This document shows positions 8,496-56,772 of a DNA stretch of 64,000 nt, piece after piece. The stretch comes from Cognatishimia sp. WU-CL00825 (lineage in GTDB: Bacteria > Pseudomonadota > Alphaproteobacteria > Rhodobacterales > Rhodobacteraceae). The DNA is taken from NCBI RefSeq assembly GCF_040364665.1, contig NZ_BAABWX010000001.1, forward strand, positions 1,736,001-1,800,000, in the 5' to 3' direction. A model generated the notes under the pieces. The model worked only from the letters and a program-made list of their open reading frames with translations. It did not search any database and was not told where the DNA came from. Both the position numbers and the translations under genes were made by a program. How positions within the stretch are numbered: position 1 is the first letter of the stretch; each line of letters starts with the position of its first letter.

Positions 8496-9046
8496 CAGGC
8501 ATAACCCATCAGCTTACGCACCACAGGATGCTCCACCTCCATGATCTGTTTACCCTCAAAGGCAATCCCCAGAAGCTCATCCATCGGTTGGTCAGGCCAT
8601 TGCGGATCATCGTCAATCCCTTTGGCCTCAGGGGTGATATACATCCCCTGATCCATATCAGACATCACACGCACCCACGCATCCTGCGCTTTACGTGCAG
8701 CCATCATCGCGGATTCGTTCCACATATTCGGGCGACCATCCCCACGAGGCAGGTTCAACGGCCATAGGAATGGAACGACACCACCCCGCGCAACAGCCAG
8801 GTGTAACCGCACAGCGCGGTATTCTCCCTCCAAAGCCGCCAGCATCGACCCCGCAACCAGATAGGTCTCCCCCTCGTAAGGCAGGACCGCAGCGTCGTAT
8901 GTATATGCGGGATCAGGATGCGTTCTGATGAACTGCTGACGGTTCGGTTTCTGGACCGGGATATTGGTCAGCAATGTTTCGGTGACCAATGTCGGGTCAA
9001 CCAATGTGTCCAGCTTAAACTGGGACGGATCAAAAGTGTTTTGCAT
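8495..9046 (-). CDS. Conserved hypothetical protein upstream of the phage-type polymerase
   Basis: The product is 183 residues and begins MQNTFDPSQF. No catalytic motif is recognised. The stretch QQFIRTHPDPAYTYDAAVLPYEGETYLVAG suggests a compact beta-rich fold, and the C-terminal part is acidic. It is the first gene of the unit and overlaps the polymerase start by one base, so it is probably a replication- or processivity-related accessory of that polymerase. That is inferred from position only. Confidence 0.55.
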   Translation of the reverse strand: MQNTFDPSQFKLDTLVDPTLVTETLLTNIPVQKPNRQQFIRTHPDPAYTYDAAVLPYEGETYLVAGSMLAALEGEYRAVRLHLAVARGGVVPFLWPLNLPRGDGRPNMWNESAMMAARKAQDAWVRVMSDMDQGMYITPEAKGIDDDPQWPDQPMDELLGIAFEGKQIMEVEHPVVRKLMGYA

Positions 9047-37785: not shown

Positions 37786-37804
37786 GTTCCCCCAACCTGC
37801 GCAA

Positions 37805-38809: not shown

Positions 38810-38821
38810 CGTCGCAGCCTT

Positions 38822-40746: not shown

Positions 40747-40759
40747 ATCAAACGGCCTT

Positions 40760-41956
40760 TCAGAGTTCCAAGATGGCTTTGGAAATGATCGTGCGCTGAA
40801 TCTCGTTGGCACCGCCAAAGATCGAGAGCTTACGCATATTGAAATAAGTCGGTGCTGCCGAAGCCGCGTGTTCCGGCCCCATGGCGTCAACGTTGTCGCC
40901 GCCCTCTAGGTAATCAGGCAGATACGGCATGGCATCCGGTCCTGCTGCGCGGCGCAGCAACGATGTCAGCTCTTGGCGCAACAAGGTGCCTTTCACTTTC
41001 AACATCGAGCTTTCCGCACCCGGTGCCTGCCCTTTCGCAGCCGCACTAATAACTCGCAAGTTGGTGGTACGCATCGCCATCAAATCGATTTCAACCTGCG
41101 CCAAGCGCGCTGCGAAATGCGGGTTCTGATTCAGCGGTTTGCCACCCGATGCTGTATTGGCCGCAACGTGTTTCAACGTTGCCAGAGCCGCATCAGAAAA
41201 ACCAACGCCTGCAATATTAGTACGTTCGTGCGTCAGCAGATACTTGGCATAGGTCCAGCCCTTGTCCTGTTCACCCACCAAATTTTCGACAGGCACGCGC
41301 ACATCGTCGAAAAACACCTCGTTCACTTCGGCATCTCCATCAATCAATTTGATTGGGCGCACGGTGACACCCGGCGTATTCATGTCGATCAACAGAAAGG
41401 AAATACCCGCCTGATTTTTGACTTCGGTATTTGTCCGCACAAGGCAGAAAATCCAGTTGGCGTGTTGACCCAGTGTGGTCCAAGTCTTTTGGCCATTCAC
41501 GACGTAATGATCGCCGTCCAACACAGCACGGGTTTTCACCGCCGCTAGGTCAGAACCAGCACCCGGCTCTGAATAGCCCTGACACCACCAGTCTTCGCCA
41601 CTTAAGATACGTGGCAAGAAACGTTGACGCTGCTCTTCGCTACCGAAGGCCAGCAAAACAGGCGCTAGCATCGTCAGGCCAAAGGGCACCAGACGCGGAG
41701 CATGGGCCAAACAAGCCTCTTCTTCAAAAATCTGACGCTCCACCGCGTTCCATTCAGCGCCTCCATAGGCTTTTGGCCAATTGGCAGCCAACCACCCACG
41801 GGCATTCAGAATGGCATTCCATTCTTCCGTATCCGCCTTGGTCAGCTGTTTCCCCAACCGAGTTTTTTCGGCAATGTGGTCCGGCAGGTTATCAGCCAAA
41901 AAGCTGCGCACCTCGGCGCGAAACGCCTCTTGTTCTTCGGTGTAGTTCAGATCCAT
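40760..41956 (-). CDS. Acyl-CoA dehydrogenase
   Basis: The ATG at 41956 follows GGGAGC and gives 398 residues. Landmarks are YGGAEWNAVERQIFEEE, WWCQGYSEPGAGSDLAAVKT (FAD-binding loop), GDHYVVNGQKTWTTLGQHAN and the C-terminal IFGGANEIQRTIISKAIL. This is the FadE-like branch frequent in degradation of sterol side chains, cyclic acids and branched acids. It lies 10 bp after the thiolase gene and 13 bp before the second dehydrogenase gene. Electrons go to the ETF system encoded elsewhere. Confidence 0.88.
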   Translation of the reverse strand: MDLNYTEEQEAFRAEVRSFLADNLPDHIAEKTRLGKQLTKADTEEWNAILNARGWLAANWPKAYGGAEWNAVERQIFEEEACLAHAPRLVPFGLTMLAPVLLAFGSEEQRQRFLPRILSGEDWWCQGYSEPGAGSDLAAVKTRAVLDGDHYVVNGQKTWTTLGQHANWIFCLVRTNTEVKNQAGISFLLIDMNTPGVTVRPIKLIDGDAEVNEVFFDDVRVPVENLVGEQDKGWTYAKYLLTHERTNIAGVGFSDAALATLKHVAANTASGGKPLNQNPHFAARLAQVEIDLMAMRTTNLRVISAAAKGQAPGAESSMLKVKGTLLRQELTSLLRRAAGPDAMPYLPDYLEGGDNVDAMGPEHAASAAPTYFNMRKLSIFGGANEIQRTIISKAILEL

Positions 41957-41966
41957 CACCCGCTCC

Positions 41967-43145
41967 CTAGAAAATTTCGAACAGGCCAGCGGCACCTTGG
42001 CCACCACCGATACACATCGTCACAACACCCAACTTGGCACCACGACGTTTGCCTTCGATCAGCAGATGCCCCGTCATACGCGCACCGGTCATGCCAAACG
42101 GGTGACCAATCGAGATAGAGCCGCCGTTCACATTACAAATCGCAGGATCAATCTCTAGGCGGTCACGGCAATACAGCGCCTGGGACGCAAAGGCCTCGTT
42201 CAATTCCCACAAATCGATGTCATTCACGGTCAAACCATGACGTTTCAACAGACGTGGCACGGCAAAAACCGGACCAATGCCCATTTCATCTGGCTCACAA
42301 CCTGCAACAGCAAAACCTTTGAATGCACCCAACGGTTCTATGCCTTCGCGTGCCGCTGCATCTGCGTCCATCACCACCAATGCGGCTGCACCATCAGACA
42401 ATTGTGATGCGTTACCCGCAGTGATGAAATGACCTTCGCCCTGAACGGGCTTCAAACCAGCCAAGCCTTCCAAAGTGGTGTTCGGGCGGTTGCAATCATC
42501 CATGCTAAAGGTCACCTCCCTATGGGTAACCTCACCAGTTTCACGATCTTTGAACGCCTGCGTTACAGTGATTGGGACAATCTCATCGTCCAGCTTACCG
42601 GACCCCTGCGCTGCTGCTGTCCGCTTTTGGCTTTCCAACGCCAACTCATCCTGCGCTTCGCGGCTGATGTTATAGCGTTGCGCCACAATATCCGCGGTTT
42701 GAATCATCGACAGATAAGTCTCTGGCTTGTTTTCAACGATCCAGCTTTCTTTCGCCTGCGGAGGACGTGACGGAGGCATCTGGCTGATGCTTTCAACACC
42801 ACCAGCAATCGCCGCGTCCGCACCTTCGGTGGTGACCGTATTCGCCGCCATCGCGATCGCTTGCAAACCGGACGAGCAGAACCGGTTCACAGTTGCCGCC
42901 GCAACCGTCACAGGCAGGCCTGCACGGATGACGGCCTGACGCGCGATGTTGCTGCCTGTCCAAGCTTCAGGATAGCCGCAACCAATCAGAGCATCTTCGA
43001 TCAGATCAGGGTTCACACCAGATCGTGCGACAGCATGTTCAATCGCATGGCCAGCCATAGTCGCGCCATGAGTTTCGTTGAAGGCACCTCGGTAAGACTT
43101 TGCCAGACCTGTGCGTGCCGTAGAGACGATAACCGCTTGTTTCAT
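41967..43145 (-). CDS. Acetyl-CoA acyltransferase (thiolase)
   Basis: The product is 392 residues with all catalytic residues of thiolase: the nucleophilic cysteine in [16 protein letters not shown], the histidine in [16 protein letters not shown], and the second cysteine in [27 protein letters not shown] completes the motif set. It releases acetyl-CoA from a 3-oxoacyl-CoA, or makes the reverse condensation. It follows the FadJ-like gene after 11 bp, as is usual for a beta-oxidation pair. Confidence 0.93.
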
Positions 43146-43156
43146 TGCTATTTCCT

Positions 43157-45244
43157 TTACCCGTTCAGATCGGCAAATGTTTTGCCTTCAGCCACCAGTC
43201 GCTCCAACAATGGGGCCGGTTGCCACATGAAATCGTCCTCTTGGGACAGGCGTTTGATGTCGTTCAGAATTTTGTCCAGGCCTACAGTGTCCGCATATTG
43301 CATCGGACCACCGCGCCAGCGTGGGAAGCCATAGCCATTCAACAGCGTCACATCGACATCTAGCGGACGCAGGGCAATGCCCTCTTCCAAGACGCGCGCC
43401 GCTTCGTTGATCATGGCGGCCATATAACGATCGACGATCTCTTGATCGCTGATCTCTTGTGCCTTCACGCCATTATCCGTGCGCTCAGCAGCAATGATCT
43501 CCAGAACCTCTGGGTCTGCCGACGGCTTGCCATCTTCGTAGATATAGAAACCACGGCCAGTCTTACGGCCAAAACGATCTTTCTCACAAAGACGATCCGA
43601 GAATTCCGCATACATCTCACGCGGATCACGGGTTGGTGCCAAACGCTTGCGTGTCGCCCATCCGATATCCAGGCCAGCAAGGTCAGCCACCGAAAATGGC
43701 CCCATCGCCATGCCGAAATTCACCAATGCACGGTCAACGTCATATGGGCTTGCACCCGCAATCACGACGCCGTCCATTGCTTGACGGTAATGCGACAACA
43801 AACGGTTGCCAATGAACCCATCACAAACACCAGACCGTACAGCAACTTTGCGCAGCTTCTTGGCAAAGGCAAAACCAGTCGCGACGACTTCGGCAGAGGT
43901 CTTATCCGCCACAACCACTTCAAGCAGCTTCATCACATGCGCTGGCGAGAAAAAGTGCAGGCCAATCACATCCTCAGGACGTTTTGTCATCTCGGCGATG
44001 GCGTTTACGTCCAGATAAGAGGTGTTAGAGGCCAAAATCGCGCCCGGTTTACAGATCGCATCCAGCTGGCCAAAGACGTCTTTTTTAACCTCAAGGCTTT
44101 CAAAGACAGCCTCAACAACGATGTCCGCATTCGCCAGATCCTGATAGTCAGATGTGGCCGCAAAGCGGTTTGCCAGAATGTCGTCAAACGCAGCTTGGCT
44201 TAGCTTGCCGCGCTTTACGGACCCTTCCAGCATTTTGGAAACAGATGAGGTCGCTCGATCGGCCGACGCTTGGTCCCGCTCGATCAAGGTCACGGTGAGC
44301 CCAGCAAGGAGAGAGCTAACAGCAATGCCGGCACCCATCGTACCGCCGCCCACGACCCCAATCGCGGCGATGTCACGTGGTGATACATCTTTGATTTCGG
44401 GCAACTTGCCCACCTGGCGTTCTGAGAAGAACGCATGGATCAACGCAGAACGCTGATCGCCATTCATAAGGTCTTGGAAAAATGCACGCTCTTGCGCCAA
44501 ACCTTCGGTGATTGGCAGCTTGGTTGCATTTTCAATCGCGTCAACGCATTTCTGCGGCGCGAACTGGCCACGCATCTTTTTCGCCAAAGTTGCGCGGGCT
44601 GTGTCAAACAGACCATCTTCAGCGCTGTTGCATGGCAACGCACCGGTTGGACGCGCCAGCTTACCTTCAGACAACAATGTCATCGCATAAGCGATACCAG
44701 CAGTACGCGGATCATCTTGATCTGCAACCGCATCAACCAAACCAGCCTCTTGCGCCTCAGCCACTTTGATCTGACGGCCAGAGGTGATCATGTCCAAAGC
44801 CATCTTCACGGGAACAACACGTGGCAAACGCTGCGTGCCCCCTGCCCCTGGCAACAGACCCAAAGTCACTTCAGGCAGGCCAAAACGAGTGTTTGGCTGT
44901 GCTATGCGATAATGCGCACCCAATGCAACTTCTAGACCACCACCCAGAACGGTTCCATGCAGAGAAGCAACCACGGGCTTTGCAGAGGCTTCGATCGTTT
45001 CGATGACCGCAGGCAAGGATGGTTCCGCATGCGGCTTACCAAATTCACGAATATCCGCACCGGCAATAAAGGTGCGACCTTCACAGCAAATAACGACCGC
45101 TTGCACAGTTTCATTGGCATTTGCCTGAGCAACACAATCGGCCAGTCCGGCACGAACAGCTTGAGAAAGCGCGTTCACCGGAGGGTTCGACACCTCAATG
45201 ACAGCTACATTTTCTACAGTTTCAATTTTTACGGCGTTGGTCAT
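43157..45244 (-). CDS. Bifunctional enoyl-CoA hydratase/3-hydroxyacyl-CoA dehydrogenase (FadJ/FadB-like)
   Basis: The product is 695 residues, the common size for this fusion. The N-terminal crotonase domain shows [18 protein letters not shown] and [20 protein letters not shown]. The hydroxyacyl-CoA dehydrogenase begins near residue 296 with [20 protein letters not shown], then [15 protein letters not shown] (catalytic histidine) and [13 protein letters not shown]. It performs hydration and NAD-dependent oxidation of acyl-CoA intermediates. It is the first gene of the seven-gene operon; paired IclR-type operators lie 55-90 bp upstream. Confidence 0.92.
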
Positions 45245-45298
45245 GTGTCACCTGAGTCGTGAATTGTGTGGGAAAGTCATCGCATCAATCTTCATAAA

Positions 45299-45333
45299 TT
45301 TCAATATGTAGAATTTATTTCTGTTAAATGGAA
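45299..45333. promoter_or_regulatory. Tandem IclR-type operators before the beta-oxidation operon
   Basis: TTTCAATATGTAGAA at 45299-45313 and TTCTGTTAAATGGAA at 45319-45333 have centres 20 bp apart. The first matches 13 of 15 bases of the upstream site at 36181, and the second is close to the sites at 29379 and 29399. They lie upstream of the fadJ-like start on the minus strand. Confidence 0.58.
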
Positions 45334-45458
45334 CCTAAGGTTACTTCGAATAACAGGCGAAACGCGGAAATTTTCCCGGTTTAGGCCCGTGAAAACAGCG
45401 GCATGCGCTGACCATCAGCAAGTCCGGCACACCACTTAGGCTAGCTGTTCAACTTTGA

Positions 45459-46244
45459 TTATGATGAGCGGAACTTTGGCGCTTCCTTATTCAAGAATGC
45501 AGAAACGCCGATACTGGCCTCTTCGCCAGCCAAAGCCTGCGCCATTGTGTTGCATTCCAGATCAAGCTGAGCATCCAAGCCATTCGTTTCTGCGGCTTCC
45601 AACAGTGCCTTAATGCTACCAATCACTTTATCCGGCCCTGCGTAAATCCGTGCGGCCAATTTCTGCGCCTCCTCTAGAGCTTTCCCCTTCAAAGTCACTT
45701 CAGAAATTGCGCCCAATTCAAACAGACGCTGCGCCGAAATCGGCTCACCCAGCATAGCAAGCTTAGACACTAATGCTCGCGGAAGTGCGGCGCGCAGCGA
45801 ATGGGTCACCCCACCGTCAGGCACAAGCCCAGCATTTACATAGGCCAGAATGAGCTTACTCTGCTCAGCAGCGACGATCATGTCACAAGCCATCATCAAA
45901 GACAGCCCAGCACCCGCCGCGCCACCTTCAACCGCACAAATCACCGGCTTGGTACAGGTGCGAATGGCTTTGATTACATCATGCAACGCATTGATGTTAT
46001 CAAACCGCTCTTGCTCAGAAAGGCTGTTATTTTCTTTCAAAAAGTTCAGATCGCCACCCGAGCAAAAGAAATCCCCTTCTGCCGCAAGGATCACGCTTCC
46101 AATAGCAGCATCGGCACTGGCCTCTTCCAACGCCTCAATCAGTGCAAGGTTGTAGGACTCGGTCAAAGCGTTCTTGTACTTTGAGTTCGTATTCCAAAAG
46201 ACGACATGCCCTTCTTGCACGTCCTTACGGAAAGTCTGCGTCAT
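45459..46244 (-). CDS. Enoyl-CoA hydratase/isomerase (crotonase family), paralogue
   Basis: The ATG at 46244 follows AAAGGTGAG and gives 261 residues. The sequence runs parallel to the crotonase at 38822-39601 throughout, sharing FFCSGGDLN, INALHDVIKAIRTC (there INRLHDIIRAIRAC), AVEGGAAGAGLS and AYVNAGLVPDGGVT. The catalytic region again has PDGG. It stands alone, about 175 bp from the porin gene and 210 bp from the beta-oxidation operon. It may supply a second substrate range or a non-hydratase reaction such as isomerisation or ring processing. Confidence 0.85.
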   Translation of the reverse strand: MTQTFRKDVQEGHVVFWNTNSKYKNALTESYNLALIEALEEASADAAIGSVILAAEGDFFCSGGDLNFLKENNSLSEQERFDNINALHDVIKAIRTCTKPVICAVEGGAAGAGLSLMMACDMIVAAEQSKLILAYVNAGLVPDGGVTHSLRAALPRALVSKLAMLGEPISAQRLFELGAISEVTLKGKALEEAQKLAARIYAGPDKVIGSIKALLEAAETNGLDAQLDLECNTMAQALAGEEASIGVSAFLNKEAPKFRSS

Positions 46245-46419
46245 GCGCTCACCTTTCATGGCGGCACAAGGCGTGCCGTGTAACGTCAAAAATGTTAAAA
46301 TACCCCTCAGAAGGCAGCGAATATGCTAACTGGAGAAGCCTTAGGATTTTCGAATTCTTCGACCGAGGCATGGGGTCCACATATGAGAGGCGCTGGGAGT
46401 GCGGGGACATTGTGGATAG

Positions 46420-47079
46420 CTAAAAGCGGTATGTGTAACCGGCATGCAAGATCCATGGATTTAAGTCGACTTCAGCCACAACAGGCGCACCGCCAAAACC
46501 AGGTACGGCAGGACTCACAGTGCCTGTGATCGTCGTCTTAGTGATAAGCTTATTGGCAGAGAAAAAGACGCCCTGCTTGTCATCAATCAGATAATCAAAC
46601 CCAGCACGCAACACGCCACCAAAGGCGTTATCAATTGATAGGTCATTTACCGAGCCGTCGCTTTCATCAAAAACCATCGTATAGCTGATGCCAGCACCGA
46701 CAAATGGCTGGAGACGCCCTTGTGGATTGAAGTGATAGTTAGCCGCCAGAATAGCCGGCCCATAGGTAACCTCACCAACATCCAAACCGGCAATTGTTCC
46801 TTCGCCAGTAATGCTACTTGTTGGGGGCGTACCGATGATACCGATCACGGAAACATTCGGGTTAAAAAAGTAACCAATGCCAACACCCAAAGCTAACTCA
46901 CTGGAAACGTCGACGTTAGATGACGGCACTGCGCCACCTGCTGCCGTCAGCGATGTGCTTTCATTGAAAGCGACGCTCGCGACACCGGCTTGAACGTACC
47001 AACCACTATCACCCGCATGGGCAGCCGTAGCAGTTACCGCAACCAGCGCCAGTGCGCTGCAAAGCATTTTTGAATTCAT
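46420..47079 (-). CDS. ompW: OmpW-family outer-membrane protein
   Basis: The product is 219 residues with a signal peptide (cleaved after AHA near residue 22). The mature part alternates hydrophobic residues as in an eight-stranded barrel and ends in aromatic YTYRF, the usual outer-membrane targeting end. GWYVQAGVASVAF, NPNVSVIGIIGTPP and PFVGAGISYTMVF match OmpW. OmpW-type channels help hydrophobic small molecules cross the outer membrane and are frequent in alkane, aromatic and terpene degradation loci, which suits the neighbouring genes. GGGAGG precedes the ATG. Confidence 0.87.
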   Translation of the reverse strand: MNSKMLCSALALVAVTATAAHAGDSGWYVQAGVASVAFNESTSLTAAGGAVPSSNVDVSSELALGVGIGYFFNPNVSVIGIIGTPPTSSITGEGTIAGLDVGEVTYGPAILAANYHFNPQGRLQPFVGAGISYTMVFDESDGSVNDLSIDNAFGGVLRAGFDYLIDDKQGVFFSANKLITKTTITGTVSPAVPGFGGAPVVAEVDLNPWILHAGYTYRF

Positions 47080-47148: not shown

Positions 47149-47302
47149 GAGCCTCTTCTGGGCTCGTTTCTTCGTCTTCCCCCAAAGCCTTTTTGCTTTG
47201 AGGGTCGCATTCGTTGTTATGTTCGAAAGCAACCATTTCTTAGCTTGGCAAATCCGATTTGAACCAACCCCAGCCTTTAGGCGGGGTCGGTTGGATTTTT
47301 TT
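47149..47302 (+). ncRNA. Candidate small RNA with terminal intrinsic terminator
   Basis: No plus-strand gene precedes the terminator at 47264-47302, yet it has the hairpin-plus-T-run form for plus-strand transcription. Upstream are a TATACT box at 47143-47148 and two more hairpins: GAGCC (47149) with GGCTC (47161), and CCCAAAGC (47181-47188) with GCTTTGAGGG (47195-47204, one bulged A). No clear -35 box is seen. It lies between ompW and the aldehyde dehydrogenase gene, antisense to both transcripts' spacer. The sequence is not recognised as a known RNA family. Confidence 0.4.
47264..47302 (+). terminator. Intrinsic terminator read on the plus strand
   Basis: CCAACCCC and GGGGTCGGTTGG pair with a small bulge around GCCTTTAGGC, followed by ATTTTTTTA. 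The T run is on the plus-strand side only. The reverse direction, where the aldehyde dehydrogenase gene ends, has no T run. Confidence 0.65.
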
Positions 47303-47311: not shown

Positions 47312-48718
47312 TTAGGCCCCCATCAATTTCAGAACCAATTTCGAGATCGGCCCATACGGCGGATACAGCAACTTCACCCCAGTGAAATGCCCAAGCCCCT
47401 TTTGCTCAAAGACCGATTTATAGTGGCTGAACGTATCAAAGCCTTCTTTGCCGTGATAAGCACCCATGCCACTTTGACCGACACCACCAAAGGCGAGGTC
47501 TTCTTGGATATATTGCAGCAAGGCTTCGTTCACACCCATGGAACCCGAATGCGTTTTCCGCATCACTTCACGGCGCACCAATTGGTCACCGCTAAAGCAA
47601 TACAGCGATAGCGGGCGTTCATTGGCGCTGATATAGGCAATGGCGTCTTCGATCTTATCGTAGCCAACGATCGGCAAAATCGGACCAAATATCTCTTCCT
47701 GCATCAGCGCACAATCTTGTGGCGCATTCAGTACGATGGTCAGAGGGAACTTATAGGTGGAATCCACCACGCTTTCCGTAATGCCATCTGGCTGAATGAT
47801 CGTCGCGCCTTTTTCTTCGGCTTCTTTCAGCAGGTCCTTCAAACGGCGGAAAAAGCGTTCCGAAATGATCGCGGTATAATCGTAATCCAAGATCGAATTG
47901 TAGAACTTCTTAAAGTTCTTCAGCACCTCTTGGCCGAATTCCTCGACATGTTTGTTTGGCACCAATGCATAGTCTGGAGCGATACAGGTCTGGCCTGCAT
48001 TAAACGACTTACCCCAGGTGATCCGCTCGGCAGCTTCTTTCACCGAATAATCCGGTGCAACAATTGCCGGGCTTTTTCCCCCCAGCTCCAACGTGACCGG
48101 TGTCAGGTTTGGCGCAGCAGCCGCCGCGATCAATTTACCCACACGCGTCGACCCAGTGAACAGCAGGCGATCAAATGGCAGGCTCGAGAAATGTGGCGCA
48201 AGCGAAGGGTCACCCTGCACAACTGTGACAATCTCAGGCTCAAAAGTGTCTGCCAACAAATCCGCCAGATACTTGGCAAGATTTGGTGTTTCTTCAGAAA
48301 GCCAGAGCATCACAGTATTGCCCGCAGCCAATGCGGCCACCAAAGGCGCAATACTTAGGTGCAGCGGATAATTCCAAGGCGCCATAATGCCAACCACGCC
48401 CAAGGGCTGCGGCATCGCATAACATTTCGCTGGCAACGACCAGAAAGAGGTGTGGCGTCTCTTAGCCTTCATCCACTTCTTCAGGTTCTTCTCAGCATAG
48501 TGAATGGCCCCATGGCTACCAAGGATTTCAGCAATCAACGTCTCAGAGCGCGCACGGCACCCGAAATCCTTGTTAATCGCAGAGATGAGCCCTTCCTTGT
48601 GTTTCCCCAAAGCGCCAGCCAATTTGTGAAGACGATCCAAGCGCGTCGCGAGGCTGGGGTAAGGGTCAACTTCAAAGGCCGCCTTTTGCTTTTCGAATAT
48701 TGGACGAATGTGGTTCAT
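47312..48718 (-). CDS. calB: Coniferyl-aldehyde-dehydrogenase-like (class 3) aldehyde dehydrogenase
   Basis: The product is 468 residues of the short, class 3-like ALDH branch. Landmarks are MAPWNYPLHLSIAPLVAALA, LLFTGSTRVGKLIA, VTLELGGKSPAIV (general base), and FNAGQTCIAPDYALVP (nucleophile cysteine). The C-terminus runs LYPPYGPISKLVLKLMG, a hydrophobic tail common in this group. Such enzymes oxidise coniferyl, aliphatic or terpenoid aldehydes. It is divergent from the ferredoxin gene with a 119-bp shared promoter region. An aldehyde made by the isomerase-like protein at 52 kb is a natural substrate candidate. The gene symbol reflects family only. Confidence 0.82.
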   Translation of the reverse strand: MNHIRPIFEKQKAAFEVDPYPSLATRLDRLHKLAGALGKHKEGLISAINKDFGCRARSETLIAEILGSHGAIHYAEKNLKKWMKAKRRHTSFWSLPAKCYAMPQPLGVVGIMAPWNYPLHLSIAPLVAALAAGNTVMLWLSEETPNLAKYLADLLADTFEPEIVTVVQGDPSLAPHFSSLPFDRLLFTGSTRVGKLIAAAAAPNLTPVTLELGGKSPAIVAPDYSVKEAAERITWGKSFNAGQTCIAPDYALVPNKHVEEFGQEVLKNFKKFYNSILDYDYTAIISERFFRRLKDLLKEAEEKGATIIQPDGITESVVDSTYKFPLTIVLNAPQDCALMQEEIFGPILPIVGYDKIEDAIAYISANERPLSLYCFSGDQLVRREVMRKTHSGSMGVNEALLQYIQEDLAFGGVGQSGMGAYHGKEGFDTFSHYKSVFEQKGLGHFTGVKLLYPPYGPISKLVLKLMGA

Positions 48719-48765
48719 GAATCTTCTCCCTTAAAATCTCATTAAAGGAAGCAATTCGACCATCG

Positions 48766-48783
48766 CCCGAACTTAAGGATGGG
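48766..48783. promoter_or_regulatory. Dyad in the aldehyde dehydrogenase/ferredoxin divergent promoter
   Basis: CCCGAACTTAAGGATGGG is an inverted repeat (CCC/GGG ends, CTTAAG centre). A similar dyad, CCCTAACCTAAAGTTTGGGG, lies at 51953-51972 before the isomerase gene. Both sit in promoter regions next to the MalT/AlkS-like regulator, so they are candidates for its binding sites. Confidence 0.35.
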
Positions 48784-48837
48784 TTTTCCCATTCGTTTCG
48801 TAATTAGAACGTACAATAACGGAAATTGGAGGAACCA

Positions 48838-49155
48838 ATGGTCAAGATTATCATTGTCGACGCTGATAAAGCAGCTCATGAACTTGAAGTGACCGCAGGC
48901 ACCACGCTGATGGAAGCGGCAAAAAACAACTCGATTCGCGGCGTTGATGCAGACTGCGGCGGCGCAGCTGCATGTGGCACCTGCGCCATGTCGTTTTCAC
49001 CGGACTGGTTGCACCTTCTAGAGAGCCGCAGTGAAGAAGAAGACGACATGTTGGAATTCTCTGTCGAATCCCCAGAAAAATGCCGCCTGACCTGTCAGAT
49101 CACCCTAACCGACGAAATGGACGGCCTACACGCGACAGTCGAAACAGAACAATAA
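48838..49155 (+). CDS. [2Fe-2S] ferredoxin, putidaredoxin/adrenodoxin type
   Basis: The ATG at 48838 follows GGAGG; the product is 105 residues. The cluster ligands are C40, C46 and C49 in DADCGGAAACGTC and C86 in CRLTCQI, giving the C-x5-C-x2-C-x36-C spacing of vertebrate/putidaredoxin-type ferredoxins. These carry single electrons from an FAD reductase to P450s or other oxygenases. No P450 is present in the window. The fitting reductase is encoded at 55234-56451, and the only oxygenase-like partner is the diiron protein at 52553-53455. Confidence 0.92.
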   Translation: MVKIIIVDADKAAHELEVTAGTTLMEAAKNNSIRGVDADCGGAAACGTCAMSFSPDWLHLLESRSEEEDDMLEFSVESPEKCRLTCQITLTDEMDGLHATVETEQ

Positions 49156-49157
49156 GC

Positions 49158-51908
49158 CTATAAAAGCCCGCATTTGCGGGCTTTCGCCAAAGCACCCATG
49201 CGGTTCTTAACACCAAGCTTTTGAAACACGTTGTGCAGGTGCCACTTAACCGTGGCGACTGACAGCACCAGATGAGCTGCCAATTGCGCATTGGTCATGC
49301 CGCTTTCAATAAGTTGCAACAGTTCGACCTCGCGATTGGTCAAATCCTCTACAATCCATCCGTCATCCGCATCGGCCTCAGCCTCACTCGCTTTCGGGTC
49401 GCACGGATCCACCAGACGCAAAATTTTGAATTCTGGCGCTTCCAGAATCAAATCTTCCGACGTCCCGACCTTACGTCGCATTTCAACGATGCTCTTCAAA
49501 ATGGGGCGCACATACCCAGCGAATTCGATAAAGGGAACGTAGATTCCATGCTTGTCTGCAACCTGCGACGTGCGCGACAACTCGCGTGCTGCGTCGTTGT
49601 GCCGGCCAGCCTGAAAATAGGCGTGTGACTTTAGAATGCTAAGGGTCAGCAGCTCTTCCTGCGGCCAGCGGTTTTTCAACCTGCGCTCAAGATCCTCAAC
49701 CGTTTGCGCGGCCTCATCAAATGCCCCTTCGGCAATTGCCACCTCGGCCATAATGCGGCGCTGACACACAGCAATAATCTCATTGGGCTTGCTGAACCGT
49801 GTACCCCAACTGCCATCATATACGCCCCATTGCTCTGCAATTCGGCGTGCAGTCTCGGCCTCTTGTCGACGACTGTAATGTGAAATCTGCAAACACACCG
49901 TCATAAAGGCAAGACTTGGCAATCCGTTGCGTAAACCCAGCGTTTGACCGCGCTCTAGAATCTCAAGCGCCCGCGCCGGGTTGCCATTGATTGCCGCCGT
50001 TCCGGACCGAACTTTGTGCGAAATTAGCAGCGGCTCCAACGGCCCGTAGGTCGCCGAATACCCTGTGCCAGAAGCCAACTCGATCTGTGCCAAAGGCACA
50101 TCACCGCTAAGATAGGCTAGATTGGCTGCCAACATATGCACCATCAAACCAAGCAAGGTGTTTTCACCCTCTTCGCCCGAGGCCTCTAGCGCACGTTTCA
50201 ACGGCGCCTTGGCCGCATCCAAGTTGCCCATGCGGCAATGCACCATAACCTCGATGCAATCGGCCCAAAGCCAGACATATGGCAACCCGGCCTGCATGCC
50301 CAAAACACGTGCACTCATCGCTTCTTTGATAGCGGCGCCCGCACGGTTGTTGGCCATCTGACAATAGGCCGTCACATTGGCCATAATACCCTGCACCCCG
50401 GCTTCACACGCAGGCCATCGCTTACGCGTTTCCGAAATCATCTCTAGCGCTGCTTCCGTGTCATCCTTAGCGGCCCGCGCCAGCGCTTCGACGGTTTCCG
50501 CATAGGCCAGCGTCTCTGCCACAGCTAAATCGCTGGTATCAGCGCCCTGCATGGCGTCACGAATACGGGCAACAATTTTCAAAGCCGGATCGGTGGAATG
50601 TGTGAACGCCAGTGAAAACGCATAATCCAACATCATCGCCGGATAGCGCTCCTGATGCTCAGAGGGCAAACGCTCGATCCAACGGATCAGCAGATGATTA
50701 TCACCATTCTGGCGCGCGATACGCGGAGCAGACTCGCTGATAATCCGGGCAGCCTCGTCAAAATCTTTGATATCCAGCAGGTAATTTACCGCCTCATCCA
50801 GAAATCCATTCTCTAGGCACCATTGGCTTGCCTTATGGTGGATGTCGGATTTCGAAAAATTCGGATCATTTTGCGCTGTCTCAAGGAGAAATTCCGCAAA
50901 CAGATGGTGGTACCGATACCAAGTCGCGGTTTCATCCAGCGACACAAGAAACAGGTTGGTATCCATCAGCCATTGCAGAATAGCCTTATTGCCCTTTTCC
51001 CCGCGCACGAATTCACACATCGGCACGCAAAACCGGCTTAGCGGCGCTGTACTTAGCAAGAAGTCCCGAACGCCTTCGGGCACGCGCTCCATCACATTGT
51101 CATAAAGATAGCGCGCCACGCGCTCTTTTGATCCGCTGAACTGTGACGGAATCGACGATATGCGCTTGGTCGACGTATTCATCGAAATCGATGCAATCTG
51201 CAGCCCGGCAACCCAGCCTTCTGTTGAATTCAGAATCTCAGAAACATCCGAAGGCAAAAGCGAACGCAGTTCTGACCGTTCAAAGAATGTCTCAGCCTCA
51301 ATCTGCGAAAACTTCAACTGTCCTGCATCAACAACGACAAAACTACCTTCCATCTCCCGCCGATCAAATTCCAAACGCGGCACAGTACGAGACGAAATGT
51401 ACACCCGAAGTGAGTTAGACTTAGAATCCAGAAAGCGCCCGAAACCACGCATCAGGCTGGGATTTTTAATAAAGTGGAAATCGTCAAAGAACAGGGCAGT
51501 TGGTTCAGATACACGCGCCGCCGCCTGGCTGATCAGCGCAAAGGCAACGTCAAATTCTTCTTCTTCAGCAAAGCTGGTCTGCTGGAACAACTCACGCCGG
51601 TCGATAACTCTTGCCTCAGACAGCATCTGAACAAAATATCCAAAAAAGGTCTGTGGTTGATCATCCAATGTATCAAAACTCAACCAAGCAGTGCGCTGAC
51701 CTGCGGCTGTCACCGTATCAAACAACTGTCGCATGATCGTTGTTTTGCCGTATCCTGTTGCGGCAACAAAAAGCGCAGACTCTGATGACAGGGCTTTGAA
51801 TCGCGTGACGATCTTGCCGCGCGTGACGTTCGACTTTGTTAACTTTGGCGATTGCAGCTTGGTATCAATCAAGATGCTACCATCTTGGTTCCCTTGCTTC
51901 TCATCCAT
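49158..51908 (-). CDS. MalT/AlkS-like LuxR-family ATP-dependent regulator
   Basis: The product is 916 residues, the size of MalT and AlkS. Near the N-terminus is Walker A ATGYGKTT at residues 50-57, followed by a STAND-type NTPase (LFFDDFHFIKNPSLMRGF as Walker B). The middle is a helical repeat superstructure. The C-terminal 65 residues are a LuxR helix-turn-helix (LTNREVELLQLIESGMTNAQ, then VATVKWHLHNVFQKLGV). AlkS regulates alkane oxidation in response to the substrate. Here the gene lies between the ferredoxin and the isomerase/diiron genes, which are probably its targets. Its last codons form a hairpin that also ends the convergent ferredoxin transcript. Confidence 0.88.
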   Translation of the reverse strand: MDEKQGNQDGSILIDTKLQSPKLTKSNVTRGKIVTRFKALSSESALFVAATGYGKTTIMRQLFDTVTAAGQRTAWLSFDTLDDQPQTFFGYFVQMLSEARVIDRRELFQQTSFAEEEEFDVAFALISQAAARVSEPTALFFDDFHFIKNPSLMRGFGRFLDSKSNSLRVYISSRTVPRLEFDRREMEGSFVVVDAGQLKFSQIEAETFFERSELRSLLPSDVSEILNSTEGWVAGLQIASISMNTSTKRISSIPSQFSGSKERVARYLYDNVMERVPEGVRDFLLSTAPLSRFCVPMCEFVRGEKGNKAILQWLMDTNLFLVSLDETATWYRYHHLFAEFLLETAQNDPNFSKSDIHHKASQWCLENGFLDEAVNYLLDIKDFDEAARIISESAPRIARQNGDNHLLIRWIERLPSEHQERYPAMMLDYAFSLAFTHSTDPALKIVARIRDAMQGADTSDLAVAETLAYAETVEALARAAKDDTEAALEMISETRKRWPACEAGVQGIMANVTAYCQMANNRAGAAIKEAMSARVLGMQAGLPYVWLWADCIEVMVHCRMGNLDAAKAPLKRALEASGEEGENTLLGLMVHMLAANLAYLSGDVPLAQIELASGTGYSATYGPLEPLLISHKVRSGTAAINGNPARALEILERGQTLGLRNGLPSLAFMTVCLQISHYSRRQEAETARRIAEQWGVYDGSWGTRFSKPNEIIAVCQRRIMAEVAIAEGAFDEAAQTVEDLERRLKNRWPQEELLTLSILKSHAYFQAGRHNDAARELSRTSQVADKHGIYVPFIEFAGYVRPILKSIVEMRRKVGTSEDLILEAPEFKILRLVDPCDPKASEAEADADDGWIVEDLTNREVELLQLIESGMTNAQLAAHLVLSVATVKWHLHNVFQKLGVKNRMGALAKARKCGLL
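49163..49184. terminator. Hairpin terminator inside the end of the regulator gene
   Basis: AAAGCCCGC and GCGGGCTTT form a perfect stem around four bases. It lies 8 bp after the ferredoxin stop and encodes the last residues (AKARKCGLL) of the convergent regulator gene. The T tract is short on both sides. Confidence 0.65.
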
Positions 51909-51952
51909 GACCTTCTCCCTACAGTCTTTCTAACAGACTGAAATCACGAGCT

Positions 51953-51972
51953 CCCTAACCTAAAGTTTGGGG
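51953..51972. promoter_or_regulatory. Dyad in the regulator/isomerase divergent promoter
   Basis: CCCTAACCTAAAGTTTGGGG has matching ends (CCC with GGG) and resembles the dyad at 48766-48783. A related half, CCGAACCTAAAACTC, occurs at 53462 before the CoA ligase. A separate small hairpin (CAGTCT 51922-51927, AGACTG 51935-51940) lies closer to the regulator start. It is a candidate operator for the MalT/AlkS-like protein. Confidence 0.35.
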
Positions 51973-52027
51973 TCGCTTTCGATCAGTTGCCCTAAATATC
52001 GAGAAAATAAAACACTGGGAGGACAGT

Positions 52028-52513
52028 ATGTCAGATCACCTGCATACGAACAGACTGATTAAACACGGAATTCTCGTGATGATCGTGGGGCTATTTAGCG
52101 GATTCGGACTAACGTTTTCGATTCTAGGCCAAATCAGCCTATCGCCAATTCCATTCGTCATCGACTACGAGCTACCGGGCACCACGTCCGCATGGGCACG
52201 GATGCACACCGGCTGCCTAATGAATGGTCTGATGCTTTTGGCCTTTGCTGCATTGCGTCCACGTTTCACGCTCAGCAGTAGTCAAGAATCCTCAATCAGC
52301 AAAAGCCTAGTCTTTATCGCCTGGGCGAACGTGCTGTTTTATTTTTTCGGCGCGTTCTCTCCAAACCGGGGTCTAGCGTTGAACGAAACACCGGCAGGTG
52401 GCGCAAACTGGGCATCTTATGTCGCCTATGTTCCCGCGGTCATCGCAGCAGTTCTACTTTTGCTCGTTCTGATCCGCCTACTGGCGAACCTACCGAGCAA
52501 ACGACATCTGTAA
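52028..52513 (+). CDS. styC: Styrene-oxide-isomerase-like membrane protein
   Basis: The product is 161 residues with four predicted membrane segments (about 13-35, 58-77, 93-115, 131-152), the same size and plan as StyC. Sequence blocks match StyC closely: KHGILVMIVGL, PGTTSAWARMHTGCLMNGLM and WANVLFYFFGAFSPNRGL. H60, N66 and Y105 fall where StyC has the heme-ligand histidine and the two substrate-contact residues, as I recall from the published structure. StyC turns styrene oxide into phenylacetaldehyde by a 1,2-shift. No styAB flavoprotein monooxygenase is seen here. The gene starts after GGGAGGA and begins the rightward cluster. Substrate identity is open; family is firm. Confidence 0.85.
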   Translation: MSDHLHTNRLIKHGILVMIVGLFSGFGLTFSILGQISLSPIPFVIDYELPGTTSAWARMHTGCLMNGLMLLAFAALRPRFTLSSSQESSISKSLVFIAWANVLFYFFGAFSPNRGLALNETPAGGANWASYVAYVPAVIAAVLLLLVLIRLLANLPSKRHL

Positions 52514-52552
52514 GCGGCATCTACCGCGACACAGTCAAAGGAGGAGGAAGTC

Positions 52553-53455
52553 ATGACTAAGATCACTGACGAACACCCAATGGACAACATAAAGGTGCGT
52601 ACCCTGAAGTTTGAAACTTCAGAGATGGAGTCACCAGTTTGGAGCAAATCTTGCCCAGAATTCGCGATATTTATCAACGCTCTAGGGGTCCATATCCCCT
52701 ATTTCGAACGCTACTTGATCGCAGCCCTTGGCAAAGCCAAGAAAGAAATCACCGATGATCAGCTGCGCAGCGATGTGTCAGACATCATCGGACAAGAAGC
52801 GCATCACGCTAAGAACTTTATCGACTTCAACAAGTACTTGGCGGATTGCTATCCAAAAGGCGACGCGCTGGACAAACACGCCAAAAAAGACTTTGCCACT
52901 ATGGCACGCAAAGACGATTTGCGCCGTCTTGTCGGCTTCACTGCGGGGTATGAAACCTTCACATTTCTCGCGGGCATGATCATCTTAGACAACTATGAAA
53001 AGTGGATGCACGACGCCAATCCGATCGTGCGCGCGCTTTGGGTCTGGCATCAGGTCGAAGAAGTGGAACACGGTGCCGTGGCCTTTGAGGCCTATCAACA
53101 CCTCTTTGGCGAAGATGAATGGTACCGCCGCCGCATGGTCGGCGAGGCCCTTTGGCACATCACCAAAGAAACCTGCAAAGCCTACTTCCACATGTGTAAA
53201 GTCGAGGGTTACTTCAAATCCGTTCGTGGCACTTGGAAAAGCATCAGCTTCTTGACCAAAACCATGGCGCAAATGGCTTGGCTCGCAAAACCGGTATTGA
53301 AACGCAACTATACTCCTCGCGACCACCCGCTCGTGAACCAACGCAAAAATCCTGTCGGTTTTGCATGGCGCAACTGGGAAAGCGATGGCGGCGAAGTGCT
53401 CTCTATTGATCACAGCCGTATGGCGCGAATCCTCATGTACGAAATGCCTGACTAA
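52553..53455 (+). CDS. Ferritin-like diiron protein (PF10118-type 'metal-dependent hydrolase'), candidate oxygenase
   Basis: The product is 300 residues, mostly helical, with no signal peptide. It matches the family named predicted metal-dependent hydrolases. Four ligand motifs can be placed: E52 in PYFERYL, E82-x-x-H85 in IIGQEAHHAKN, E134 in GYETFTF, and E170-x-x-H173 in HQVEEVEHGAVAFE. E, ExxH, E, ExxH with spacings of 30, 52 and 36 residues is the ligand layout of diiron oxygenases and desaturases such as acyl-ACP desaturase. This suggests O2 activation, not hydrolysis. It lies 39 bp after the isomerase gene, with ferredoxin and reductase genes nearby. Epoxidation of an alkene is the inferred role. 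Confidence 0.7.
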   Translation: MTKITDEHPMDNIKVRTLKFETSEMESPVWSKSCPEFAIFINALGVHIPYFERYLIAALGKAKKEITDDQLRSDVSDIIGQEAHHAKNFIDFNKYLADCYPKGDALDKHAKKDFATMARKDDLRRLVGFTAGYETFTFLAGMIILDNYEKWMHDANPIVRALWVWHQVEEVEHGAVAFEAYQHLFGEDEWYRRRMVGEALWHITKETCKAYFHMCKVEGYFKSVRGTWKSISFLTKTMAQMAWLAKPVLKRNYTPRDHPLVNQRKNPVGFAWRNWESDGGEVLSIDHSRMARILMYEMPD

Positions 53456-53506
53456 GATCATCCGAACCTAAAACTCGAGAGATCGCTTCAGTCCAAAGGA
53501 AAAGAA

Positions 53507-55126
53507 ATGCTTGGAAAAATGATGGCGCAGCAACTGACTATCGGTTCTGCGATCGACCACGCTGAAAGATACCACGCCGCAACCGAAGTTGTCGGCATCG
53601 AAACCAATGGCACCAAGACAAAAAGCAACTGGAGATCAGTTGCTAAACGCGCGCGCCAATTGGGCAGTGCCCTCACAAAGGCCGGCCTAAACAAAGGCGA
53701 CCGCATCGCGACCATCGCTTGGAACAACCTGCGCCACCTAGAGATTTATTTTGGTAGTTCTAGTGCTGGTTATGTCTGCCACACGATCAACCCTCGCCTT
53801 TTCCCGGCGCAGTTGGAATATATCGTAACCCACGCAAAGGACCGCATCCTGTTTGTGGATGAAACCTTTGCGCCCATCGTGGCCAATTTGGCTGACAAGT
53901 TGACCGTGCTAGATCGCATCGTCATCATGGCACCAAAAACCGATGCTTTGGCAGAGCTGTTGCCACGGGCCGAGTTCTACGAAGATTTCATCGCCACAGG
54001 CGATTCTAATTTCACTTGGCCAAATTTCGAAGAAAACCATGCCTCCAGCCTGTGCTACACATCCGGCACAACGGGTAATCCCAAAGGCGTGGCCTATACG
54101 CACCGCAGCACCATCTTGCATTCCATGGCTTTGATGGCTGCAGACGCGATGGCCATCAGCGCCAAGGAATCTGTGCTGACCGTGGTGCCAATGTTTCATG
54201 TGAACGCATGGGGTATCCCATATGCTGCGGCAATGTCTGGCTGTAAGTTGCTATTGCCGGGTCCAAAACTGGATGGCGAAAGCCTGTTGACCTTGATCAA
54301 CGAAGAACAAGCCACATTTGCGGCTGGCGTTCCAACGATTTGGGGCGGGTTGTTGCAGGCCTTGACAGCGAACAAACCAGAAAACCTATCGCTGAAACGC
54401 ACTGTCGTTGGCGGCGCGGCTTGTCCACCGTCGATGATGGACACATTCCGCAAAGGCTTTGGCGTCGAAGTCATTCACGCTTGGGGCATGACCGAGACTA
54501 GCCCGCTGGGGGTCATAAACCAGCTAAAAAACGCGCAGCTTTCGTTGTCAGAAGATGAACAAAATCAAATACGCGTCAGTCAGGGCCGTCCCCCCTTTGG
54601 CGTGCAGCTTCGTCTGTTGGATGACGAGGGTGCCGAGATCAAAACAGGTTCCGGAGGCACCGGTATTCTGCAAATCAAAGGCCATTGGATCGTGCAGCGA
54701 TATTTCAACGCAGAAAACGACGCGACCGAAGACGGTTGGTTTGACACTGGTGATATTGCAGCAATGGATCAGGACGGTTTCATCACCATCTTGGATCGCT
54801 CCAAAGACCTGATCAAATCGGGTGGTGAATGGATTTCCTCGGTAGAATTGGAAAACATCGCAATCGCTCATCCAGAAGTCATGGACGCTGCCGCAATCGC
54901 GGTTCCGCATCCAAAGTGGGACGAACGTCCAATTATTCTGGTGAAACTGGTCGAAGGTGCATCTCCCTCCGAGGCAGACATCCTAAGCATCTACCGCGAT
55001 AAAATTGCCAATTGGCAAATCCCTGATCGGGCGATCTTTGTGGACGAAATCCCACGCAACGCGACAGGCAAGATTGTTAAAAATCAGCTGCGCGAAAAAT
55101 TTGGAAGCGTTTCCTTAGACCCCTGA
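53507..55126 (+). CDS. Acyl-CoA synthetase (AMP-forming, FadD/DmdB-like)
   Basis: The product is 539 residues. Adenylation motifs are SLCYTSGTTGNPKGVAYTHR, VIHAWGMTETSPLGV, DGWFDTGDIAAMDQDGFITI, DRSKDLIKSGGEWISSVELE and a catalytic lysine in RNATGKIVKNQLRE. The GGEWIS form is typical of medium/long-chain and methylthio- or phenylalkanoate-CoA ligases. It follows the diiron gene after 51 bp. It would activate the acid formed by oxidation of the aldehyde, feeding the beta-oxidation operon at 36-45 kb. It is clearly different from the ligase at 36265. Confidence 0.9.
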   Translation: MLGKMMAQQLTIGSAIDHAERYHAATEVVGIETNGTKTKSNWRSVAKRARQLGSALTKAGLNKGDRIATIAWNNLRHLEIYFGSSSAGYVCHTINPRLFPAQLEYIVTHAKDRILFVDETFAPIVANLADKLTVLDRIVIMAPKTDALAELLPRAEFYEDFIATGDSNFTWPNFEENHASSLCYTSGTTGNPKGVAYTHRSTILHSMALMAADAMAISAKESVLTVVPMFHVNAWGIPYAAAMSGCKLLLPGPKLDGESLLTLINEEQATFAAGVPTIWGGLLQALTANKPENLSLKRTVVGGAACPPSMMDTFRKGFGVEVIHAWGMTETSPLGVINQLKNAQLSLSEDEQNQIRVSQGRPPFGVQLRLLDDEGAEIKTGSGGTGILQIKGHWIVQRYFNAENDATEDGWFDTGDIAAMDQDGFITILDRSKDLIKSGGEWISSVELENIAIAHPEVMDAAAIAVPHPKWDERPIILVKLVEGASPSEADILSIYRDKIANWQIPDRAIFVDEIPRNATGKIVKNQLREKFGSVSLDP

Positions 55127-55145
55127 TTTGAGGACATTCCGAACA

Positions 55146-55199
55146 GACTGTCAGGATTAGGTGCAATCCCTTCTCCTCCCAAGATACATCCTGACAGTC
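55146..55199. promoter_or_regulatory. 12-bp inverted repeat between CoA ligase and reductase genes
   Basis: GACTGTCAGGAT at 55146-55157 and ATCCTGACAGTC at 55188-55199 are perfect reverse complements 30 bases apart. The loop is pyrimidine-rich. There is no T run, so termination is unlikely. It lies 34 bp before the ferredoxin-reductase gene and could be an operator pair, an RNA stability hairpin or a small insertion remnant. Confidence 0.45.
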
Positions 55200-55233
55200 G
55201 CTGTTTACCCGCCCCTCAAATGAAAGACATACA

Positions 55234-56451
55234 ATGACTGGAACCCTGGTAATCGGCGCCGGCCAGGCCGCCGCGTCCTTGGCAATCAAACTCCGCGCGC
55301 TGGGGTATGATGCCGATATTACGATCATCGGCCAAGAGCCCACGCCCCCCTATCAGCGCCCTCCCCTATCCAAGGCCTTTCTGCGTGGCGATCTAACCGA
55401 AGATCGCCTGTTGCTGCGCCCGGCTGCGTTCTGGGCGGACAACAATATTTCGCTACTGCTGGAAGAAACGGCCACCCAAGTGGACGTCGCAGGCAAAACC
55501 GTCACCACAGACAAGAGCGCAACGCTTTCGTTTGATCATCTGGTTTTCGCCACCGGTGCCACCCCGCGCCACCTACCGGATGCAATCGGTGGCGCGTTGG
55601 GTAACGTCTTTTGCATACGTGGCAAAAACGACGTGGCCCAGCTCGCCCCACAATTGAAACCCGGCAAGAAACTGGTCGTGATCGGTGGCGGCTACATCGG
55701 ACTAGAAGCCGCCGCAGTGGCGCGCAAGCTCGACATGGATGTCACCCTGATCGAGTCGCAACCTCGCATCTTGCAGCGCGTCGCCGCACAAGAAACCTCG
55801 GACTACTTCCGTAAGTTACACCAAGACAATGGCGTCAACGTTCTAGAAAACACCCCTATTCAGGGTCTGGTTGGTGATCAGGATGTGTCAGGTGTTGCGC
55901 TTCAAGACGGCTCTGTCCTTGCGGCTGATCTGGTCATCACTGGCATCGGCGTCACACCCAACTCCGAGATCGCCGACGCCGCGGGCATCAAGGTGCTCAA
56001 CGGCATCATAACCGATGACCATTGCCGCACCTCTGCGGACAACATCTGGGCCATTGGAGATTGCGCCTCTTTCGCCTATCGCGGCGAAACGATCCGCCTA
56101 GAAAGCGTCGGAAATGCTATTGATAGCGGCGACTGCGTGGCCGCCAATATCGCAGGCACGGACACGCCCTATGTTCCAAAACCGTGGTTTTGGTCTGATC
56201 AGTACGACACCAAACTACAGATTGCCGGCCTAAACCTTGGATACACCGAAGTCATCACCCGCAATGACGCAGCAGCCGCAGGTTTGTCGTTTTGGTACTA
56301 TCAGAACGACACGTTGATCGCCGTGGATTCCGTAGGAGATCGCAAAGCCTATCTCGGTGGTAAGAAGATGATAGAAACCGGCATCTCCCCCCTGAAATCA
56401 GACGTGGCCGACGTCACCAAATCTGTAAAAGAGATCATGTTAGCAGGTTAA
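55234..56451 (+). CDS. NAD(P)H-dependent FAD ferredoxin reductase (putidaredoxin-reductase type)
   Basis: The product is 405 residues. FAD loop TLVIGAGQAAASLAIKL, the conserved PPYQRPPLSKAFLRGD, the NAD(P)H loop KLVVIGGGYIGLEAAAVAR, FAD-contact NIWAIGDCASF, and the C-terminal RLESVGNAIDSGDCVAANI with WFWSDQYDTKLQIAG are all hallmarks of reductases for putidaredoxin-type ferredoxins (ThcD, CamA). It supplies electrons to the [2Fe-2S] ferredoxin at 48838. It is the last gene of the rightward cluster and is followed by a strong terminator. Confidence 0.92.
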   Translation: MTGTLVIGAGQAAASLAIKLRALGYDADITIIGQEPTPPYQRPPLSKAFLRGDLTEDRLLLRPAAFWADNNISLLLEETATQVDVAGKTVTTDKSATLSFDHLVFATGATPRHLPDAIGGALGNVFCIRGKNDVAQLAPQLKPGKKLVVIGGGYIGLEAAAVARKLDMDVTLIESQPRILQRVAAQETSDYFRKLHQDNGVNVLENTPIQGLVGDQDVSGVALQDGSVLAADLVITGIGVTPNSEIADAAGIKVLNGIITDDHCRTSADNIWAIGDCASFAYRGETIRLESVGNAIDSGDCVAANIAGTDTPYVPKPWFWSDQYDTKLQIAGLNLGYTEVITRNDAAAAGLSFWYYQNDTLIAVDSVGDRKAYLGGKKMIETGISPLKSDVADVTKSVKEIMLAG

Positions 56452-56495
56452 TTCCGCCAAAATCTCAACACAAAACAATACACCATAATCAAACT

Positions 56496-56534
56496 AAAAA
56501 GAGCACGGAGTTAACTCGACCCCGTGCTCTTTTT
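56496..56534 (+). terminator. Strong intrinsic terminator
   Basis: AAAAAGAGCACGG at 56496-56508 pairs with CCGTGCTCTTTTT at 56522-56534. It ends the isomerase-diiron-ligase-reductase transcript. A separate perfect palindrome (CATTTCA, 3 bases, TGAAATG) follows at 56539-56555. Confidence 0.85.
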
Positions 56535-56772
56535 AGTTCATTTCATTCTGAAATGGCTCGCCACAGCCGCCGAGCAATGTGGTCATCTTGACTTTTCCCG
56601 AGTGAAATCCTGATAGCCGGGCTCAAGTCCTTTTTCCGGGGTAGAAACCAAACCTACACAAGATCTACTTTTTGCCCGTTCCGGCTGAGCTACGCGTACT
56701 CTATCCCAGCCCTTGCAGGTTGGGCCTGAACGCCTGGACGTGTCGCGGAATTGTGCCGCCGCAAGTGCTCGC

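Follow-up and report, generated by a model that had tools for sequence, protein, structure and literature searches.

Known systems and the Cognatishimia locus

The closest described counterpart of the genes considered here is the styrene pathway StyABCD, in which an epoxide made by StyAB is turned into an aldehyde and then into an acid. The same logic can be read in the window, a stretch of 64,000 nucleotides from the alphaproteobacterium Cognatishimia sp. WU-CL00825 (contig NZ_BAABWX010000001.1, positions 1,736,001 to 1,800,000; coordinates below are those of the window). Like StyABCD, its cluster includes a StyC homologue, an aldehyde dehydrogenase (ALDH) and an OmpW-type channel, which the sty cluster of Phaeobacter also has. 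Contrary to StyABCD, no StyA was found in the window genome, and a protein of the family PF10118 occupies the place of StyAB. The window also has a ferredoxin and a reductase instead of a flavin reductase (StyB was not searched for in the genome), together with a coenzyme A (CoA) ligase, beta-oxidation genes and a MalT-type regulator. The subject of this work is the PF10118-StyC gene pair, whose recurrence is the strongest new result.

The StyC homologue (52028..52513, + strand) matches the NCBIfam model StyOxIsoStyC (E 4.5e-33) and the solved chains of styrene oxide isomerase (SOI; 8PNU/8PNV; E ~3e-22), and is 30-37% identical to six plasmid StyC proteins. In SOI, H58 is the haem-axial histidine, and N64, N99 and Y103 position the substrate, according to the available part of PMC11374702. 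The residue alignment shows that all four are kept in the window protein, as H60, N66, N101 and Y105. Unlike SOI, it has D95 replaced, and its score of 114.4 bits is below the equivalog cut-off of 150.

The PF10118 protein (52553..53455, + strand) resembles R2lox, aldehyde-deformylating oxygenase (ADO), CADD and the soluble diiron monooxygenases in its E..ExxH..E..ExxH order and its helical predicted fold, with weak matches. Unlike the ferritin-like diiron enzymes, it is single-subunit, with no gene for a beta subunit or an effector nearby. The CYP153 alkane hydroxylase genes of an Acinetobacter plasmid are also similar, in that PF10118 stands near them together with a 2Fe-2S ferredoxin and a flavin adenine dinucleotide (FAD) reductase; however, that locus has a P450 and a PF10118 protein of another group, and no StyC was found there. 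No description of the PF10118-StyC pair, and no tested activity of PF10118, was found among the open-access papers listed. The one paper that uses the family name, PMC8960859, applies it incidentally to a group of putative proteases.

The best fit, which is unproven and close to an even call, is that the cluster is a regulon for the breakdown of an alkene or a similar unsaturated compound, in which PF10118 would epoxidise the substrate and StyC would isomerise the epoxide. We infer the substrate, the metal binding, the electron path, the link between the regulator and its site and each catalytic step. OmpW would admit the substrate. PF10118, as a ferritin-like diiron protein, would draw electrons from the [2Fe-2S] ferredoxin, activate O2 and form the epoxide. 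StyC, a membrane haem enzyme, would then convert the epoxide into an aldehyde by Meinwald rearrangement. The ALDH would oxidise the aldehyde to an acid, which the CoA ligase would activate and beta-oxidation would finish.

Recurrence of the PF10118-StyC pair

Genes for StyC and PF10118 adjoin each other in other genomes as well. A StyC-superfamily profile matched five places in 3 of 396 genomes of the phylum, and each of these three genomes has a StyC gene adjoining PF10118 (three of the five places). A second profile, built from ten rows that included the proteins of the window and of loci L017, L082 and L085, found 39 StyC-superfamily places in 21 of 337 alphaproteobacterial genomes; as its rows include PF10118-linked proteins, it may favour the kinds of StyC linked to PF10118, and as at most ten candidates were scored per genome, places may be missing from the 39. 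Regions around these places, 34 in number and some of them cut by contig ends, cover 35 of them; the window and three places in genome G421 make up the remaining four.

In 17 of the 34 regions, as well as in the window and on contig C14 of G421, no more than 270 bp separate the matched stretches of PF10118 and StyC. This amounts to 19 of the 39 StyC places, which come from 16 of the 21 genomes and, by the tool's grouping, from seven families. In one case the matched stretches overlap. StyA, on the other hand, is found near StyC at 2 of the 39 places. Estimated roughly from the number of genes and the size of the genome, the chance that a given StyC gene lies that near a PF10118 gene is well under 1/100. 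The PF10118-StyC pair is recurrent, and we infer that it is under selection. The initial annotation would have given up its pathway had the two genes co-occurred in this strain only; they were found together well beyond it.

Two of the pairs have further neighbours. At L161 (genome G769), two tandem StyC-superfamily genes stand beside one PF10118 gene. Behind the catalytic StyC-PF10118 pair of L139 (G865) come genes for PAP2, a LuxR-type autoinducer receptor and an autoinducer synthase.

Matching subgroups of StyC and PF10118

A set of 82 StyC sequences was compared at positions H58, N64, D95, N99 and Y103 of SOI. The N99/Y103 pair is kept in all 33 StyA-linked sequences, in 21 of 28 others and in 6 of the 21 linked to PF10118. 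D95 is present in 31 of the 33 StyA-linked and in none of the 21 PF10118-linked sequences.

The PF10118 proteins divide in step with their StyC partners. In a tree of 66 proteins (duplicates and fragments of fewer than 180 residues removed; midpoint root for drawing only), all StyC-linked members fall on one side of a single branch (23 rows, support 100/99). Six proteins paired with a catalytic StyC form one subgroup, that of the window, together with two G421 copies that lie apart from StyC (100/99). The fifteen proteins paired with a non-catalytic StyC form its sister subgroup (99/96). According to the tool's warning, long branches meet in this tree, so some of its joins may be false. The loci of the other 43 rows gave no StyC, although 27 of these loci span only ~2.5-3.8 kb. 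The loci sampled for the two G421 copies likewise gave none; in a longer stretch of G421, one of the copies is 9.9 kb away from a catalytic StyC. The sister pairs are those of L082, L085, L137, L144, L146, L147, L152, L153, L155, L158-L162 and L165. The haem protein of this sister group must have another function or another way of working.

The PF10118 protein

The window protein scores 145.2 bits against PF10118 (Metal_hydrol), for which the Pfam cut-off is 33.2. Nine residues (E52, E82, H85, E134, H166, E169, E170, E172 and H173) are invariant in all 66 aligned proteins. They include the E..ExxH..E..ExxH set, with E52, E82xxH85, E134 and E170xxH173 as the diiron-type ligands, and the ligand positions fall on four predicted helices. 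The full diiron ligand set proposed in the initial annotation is thus borne out by the alignment.

Beside these ligands, the window's subgroup (n=8) is set apart by T135, F or Y at position 89, F51, F138 and G174. Position 135 is T in this subgroup, S or T in the fifteen proteins of the sister subgroup and H in all 43 proteins outside the StyC-linked group, whereas position 89, F or Y in the window's subgroup, is H in all 58 others.

A search of the PDB with the single protein returned nothing convincing. An AlphaFold2 model was built on eight sequences, with distant relatives from viral contigs in the alignment; these contigs held only such distant relatives. Among the best 50 of 425 Foldseek matches of the model, R2 and R2lox come first, followed by CADD, ADO and toluene 4-monooxygenase (T4moH). 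The family itself is wider than the pair: the window protein matched 57 of 398 genomes of the phylum, and PF10118 genes also occur in other contexts on Acinetobacter and Marinobacter plasmids.

A conserved and probably co-regulated block

A profile scan with one genome per species gave 32 StyC loci, several of them cut by contig ends; the scan patterns contain the catalytic motif, which biases this sample towards true StyC. By tblastn, StyA was detected in 23 of the 32 loci and PF10118 in one, L017 from an uncultured Roseovarius. In L017, seven genes follow the same order as in the window: OmpW, ALDH, ferredoxin, regulator, StyC, PF10118 and CoA ligase. PF10118 is the best conserved of them, with 91% identity, the remaining six being 55-75% identical.

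In the window, the block begins with the OmpW-family outer-membrane channel (46420..47079, - strand; PF03922, E 7e-32; 63% identical to its syntenic L017 counterpart). It is followed by the ALDH (47312..48718, - strand; PF00171, E 6e-81; 73%), which is similar to benzaldehyde and coniferyl aldehyde dehydrogenases and has MdlD as its top NCBIfam model, with a score under the cut-off. The [2Fe-2S] ferredoxin (48838..49155, + strand; PF00111 (Fer2), E 1.2e-9; 64%) has the cysteine set C40, C46, C49 and C86 in the alignment, numbered from the ATG at 48838, and we take it to be of the putidaredoxin type. The MalT-type LuxR regulator (49158..51908, - strand; Pfam GerE and TPR_MalT; 55%), presumably AlkS-like, is 30% identical to the G421 regulator that adjoins PF10118. 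After StyC and PF10118 comes an acyl-CoA ligase (53507..55126, + strand; assigned by Pfam; 72%), for which the top NCBIfam model is 3-(methylthio)propionyl-CoA ligase, with a score under the cut-off.

One motif was common to the intergenic stretches compared, four from the window and three from L017; the stretch ahead of the reductase gene lacks it. The corresponding candidate operator, CCTWAAGNNYGG, lies upstream of OmpW (47270..47281, - strand), between the ALDH and ferredoxin genes (48767..48778, - strand) and in the divergent promoter of regulator and StyC (51959..51970, + strand). All L017 sites stand at these same three promoters. The 64-kb window has three occurrences of the pattern against 0.27 expected, a number reached by 1 of 100 shuffles, and L017 has three against 0.14 expected, reached by none of 100; these counts are not blind, because the pattern was built from the same six sites. 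Over the whole genome it has 18 matches, compared with 64 for a control pattern read backwards, and so is not enriched genome-wide. The presence of three of the 18 matches inside 4.7 kb has a probability of ~0.004 under random positions. Four of the 15 matches outside the module were inspected as further regulon sites (L200-L202) and rejected, all four lying within open reading frames. In the G421 cluster L114 the pattern was not found.

The seven genes make up a conserved unit that is probably co-regulated, the MalT-type protein being the probable activator, by way of the CCTWAAGNNYGG site. The single neighbourhood described by the initial annotation stands in part: L017 synteny and the common operator support the seven-gene block, while the reductase and the beta-oxidation operon lie outside the L017 block.

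Where the epoxide could come from

Several observations weigh against PF10118 as the epoxidase and StyC as the isomerase of the cluster. The PF10118 model is all-helical and moderate in quality (pLDDT 70, pTM 0.71), its best Foldseek match has E 0.03 and TM 0.45, none of the best 50 of 425 reaches E <= 0.001, and these 50 also include haem oxygenases and a designed helical barrel. On the StyC side, SOI D95 corresponds to I in the window and V in L017, and the available part of PMC11374702 states that D95A impairs SOI. Other points concern the proposed electron path. The L017 locus has no gene for the reductase (nor for FadB or ECH), and the reductase homologue of that genome (51%) sits on a contig other than that of L017. 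A ferredoxin gene was found in three of the eight loci of the window's PF10118 clade, one of them, in G421, ~10 kb from PF10118; none was found near PF10118 in L139, L141, L149 and L157 (6 kb seen) or in L081.

The most probable alternative is that the epoxide is made by another oxygenase, a P450 or an enzyme not searched for, with the electrons of the ferredoxin and reductase, and that PF10118 acts elsewhere, for example on the aldehyde or the acid. We consider this unlikely. P450 genes were found in all six genomes searched. In favour of this alternative, the window genome has three P450s, and its ferredoxin shares 38% identity with the ferredoxin that partners CYP153 at L009, the Acinetobacter plasmid locus. 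In L009, a PF10118 gene of a third group stands near the ferredoxin-CYP153-reductase genes, with an IS5 transposase gene between, and in G466 (L095) another member of this group is ~2.6 kb from ferredoxin and CYP153 genes; CYP153 may itself be the oxygenase at both loci. The three P450s of the window genome, however, are on another contig or at least ~780 kb from the cluster. They are 21-26% identical to the L009 CYP153 (one has a 71% relative in the genome of L017), and no CCTWAAGNNYGG match stands beside them: contig 12 has no match, C1:757580 has none in its vicinity, and the match nearest to C1:1002698 is ~12.5 kb away.

Also against the best fit, diiron monooxygenases of the family PF02332 were matched in two of the six genomes, that of L017 and G421. 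In the former, the set is on another contig than the locus (309,755 versus 169,234 bases), and from its gene order we take it to be propane monooxygenase-like. In G421, two PF02332 gene sets are found ~4 kb beyond StyC, on the contig that also carries the ferredoxin, the ALDH and the group of PF10118, regulator and CoA ligase, and its StyC may be served by these enzymes. This contig end (L114/L181, C13:316000-344026) forms an island dense in genes for the oxidation of alkenes or aromatics, with PF10118, a CoA ligase, MalT-type regulators, MMPL, DUF1329, StyC, ferredoxin, ALDH, a XylR-type activator and the two PF02332 sets.

Against another oxygenase as the source, PF02332 had no match in the window genome (G000), G977, G865 and G840, all of which keep a catalytic PF10118-StyC pair; the searches did not extend to oxygenases of the AlkB or Rieske type. 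StyA was matched in none of the six genomes (these four, G421 and that of L017), a search that included no positive-control genome, although the same query did find StyA at other loci. As candidate oxygenases of the window genome, StyA, PF02332 enzymes and linked P450s were thus looked for and not found. The initial annotation had reported neither StyAB nor P450 and had allowed that such a gene, linked to the same regulator just outside, could explain the epoxide. StyA was found nowhere in the genome, and the absence of P450s holds for linked genes and fails genome-wide, the three P450s being distant and without the operator pattern nearby.

The role of the haem protein

A second alternative, which we consider quite improbable, is that a PF10118-paired StyC is mainly a membrane haem partner of the diiron protein, as its anchor or electron donor, and that the isomerase residues of the window StyC are perhaps kept by descent. 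The axial histidine is kept in all 21 PF10118-linked sequences, while N99 is lost in 15 and Y103 too in 12 of these 15. This loss also counts against epoxidation followed by isomerisation, in that the general role of the pair need not be epoxide isomerisation. The close spacing of the two genes, with one overlap of matches, would suit such a partnership, and a membrane-anchor role of SOI has been put forward (PMC12502698). However, N99 and Y103 are both kept in the six adjacent pairs of the window's subgroup (6/6), and the ALDH and CoA ligase of the window suit an aldehyde product.

Finally, a chance neighbourhood of horizontally gathered, functionally loose genes, which the rarity of StyC and PF10118 in the window's order (1 of 390 and 2 of 380 genomes with single-protein queries) and the transposase remnants flanking the cluster could suggest, is rejected as most improbable, being largely refuted by L017 synteny, the common operator, the adjacency at 19 of 39 places and the matching subgroups.

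Flanking features

All the genes listed by the initial annotation were found in their places, including those beyond the seven-gene block. The FAD-dependent ferredoxin reductase (55234..56451, + strand; PF07992/PF14759) has three more homologues in the window genome at E <= 1e-20. It is separated from the CoA ligase gene by a perfect 12-bp inverted repeat, GACTGTCAGGAT/ATCCTGACAGTC (55146..55199), and followed by a 20-bp hairpin (56492..56538) that may mark the operon end. The beta-oxidation operon (36265..46289, - strand) neighbours the cluster and encodes ECH, a FadB-type protein, a thiolase, two acyl-CoA dehydrogenases, NMO and a CoA ligase. Its genes are those announced by the initial annotation, without belonging to the L017 block, and it is possible that they form the downstream pathway of the cluster.

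In the space that separates the cluster from the genes after it, Pfam detects an HTH_21 fragment, with short frames nearby (57230-57622), presumably the remains of an IS3-type transposase. A resolvase-type recombinase and a DNA-polymerase-like open reading frame at 5525-9046 are, we assume from their translations, a possible mobile element.

Implications for the PF10118 family

Epoxidation by PF10118 and isomerisation by StyC can be extended, more tentatively than for the window itself, to the other pairs. The StyC-linked PF10118 proteins would be a new family of single-component diiron alkene epoxidases that pass the epoxide directly to a dedicated membrane haem isomerase, as a two-gene unit present in several families of Alphaproteobacteria. 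In the sister unit, the StyC protein, having lost its isomerase residues, would carry out another, undescribed haem chemistry.

If this is true, it would provide the first function for PF10118, a common family annotated as 'predicted metal-dependent hydrolase', and a diiron route would join the few known ways from an alkene to an aldehyde. The two-gene unit is small enough to be tested in Escherichia coli, and natural variants of each partner are available among its relatives. With its non-catalytic StyC, the sister group raises the question of the role of those haem membrane proteins. The recurrent two-gene pair hints at an undescribed route of alkene breakdown.

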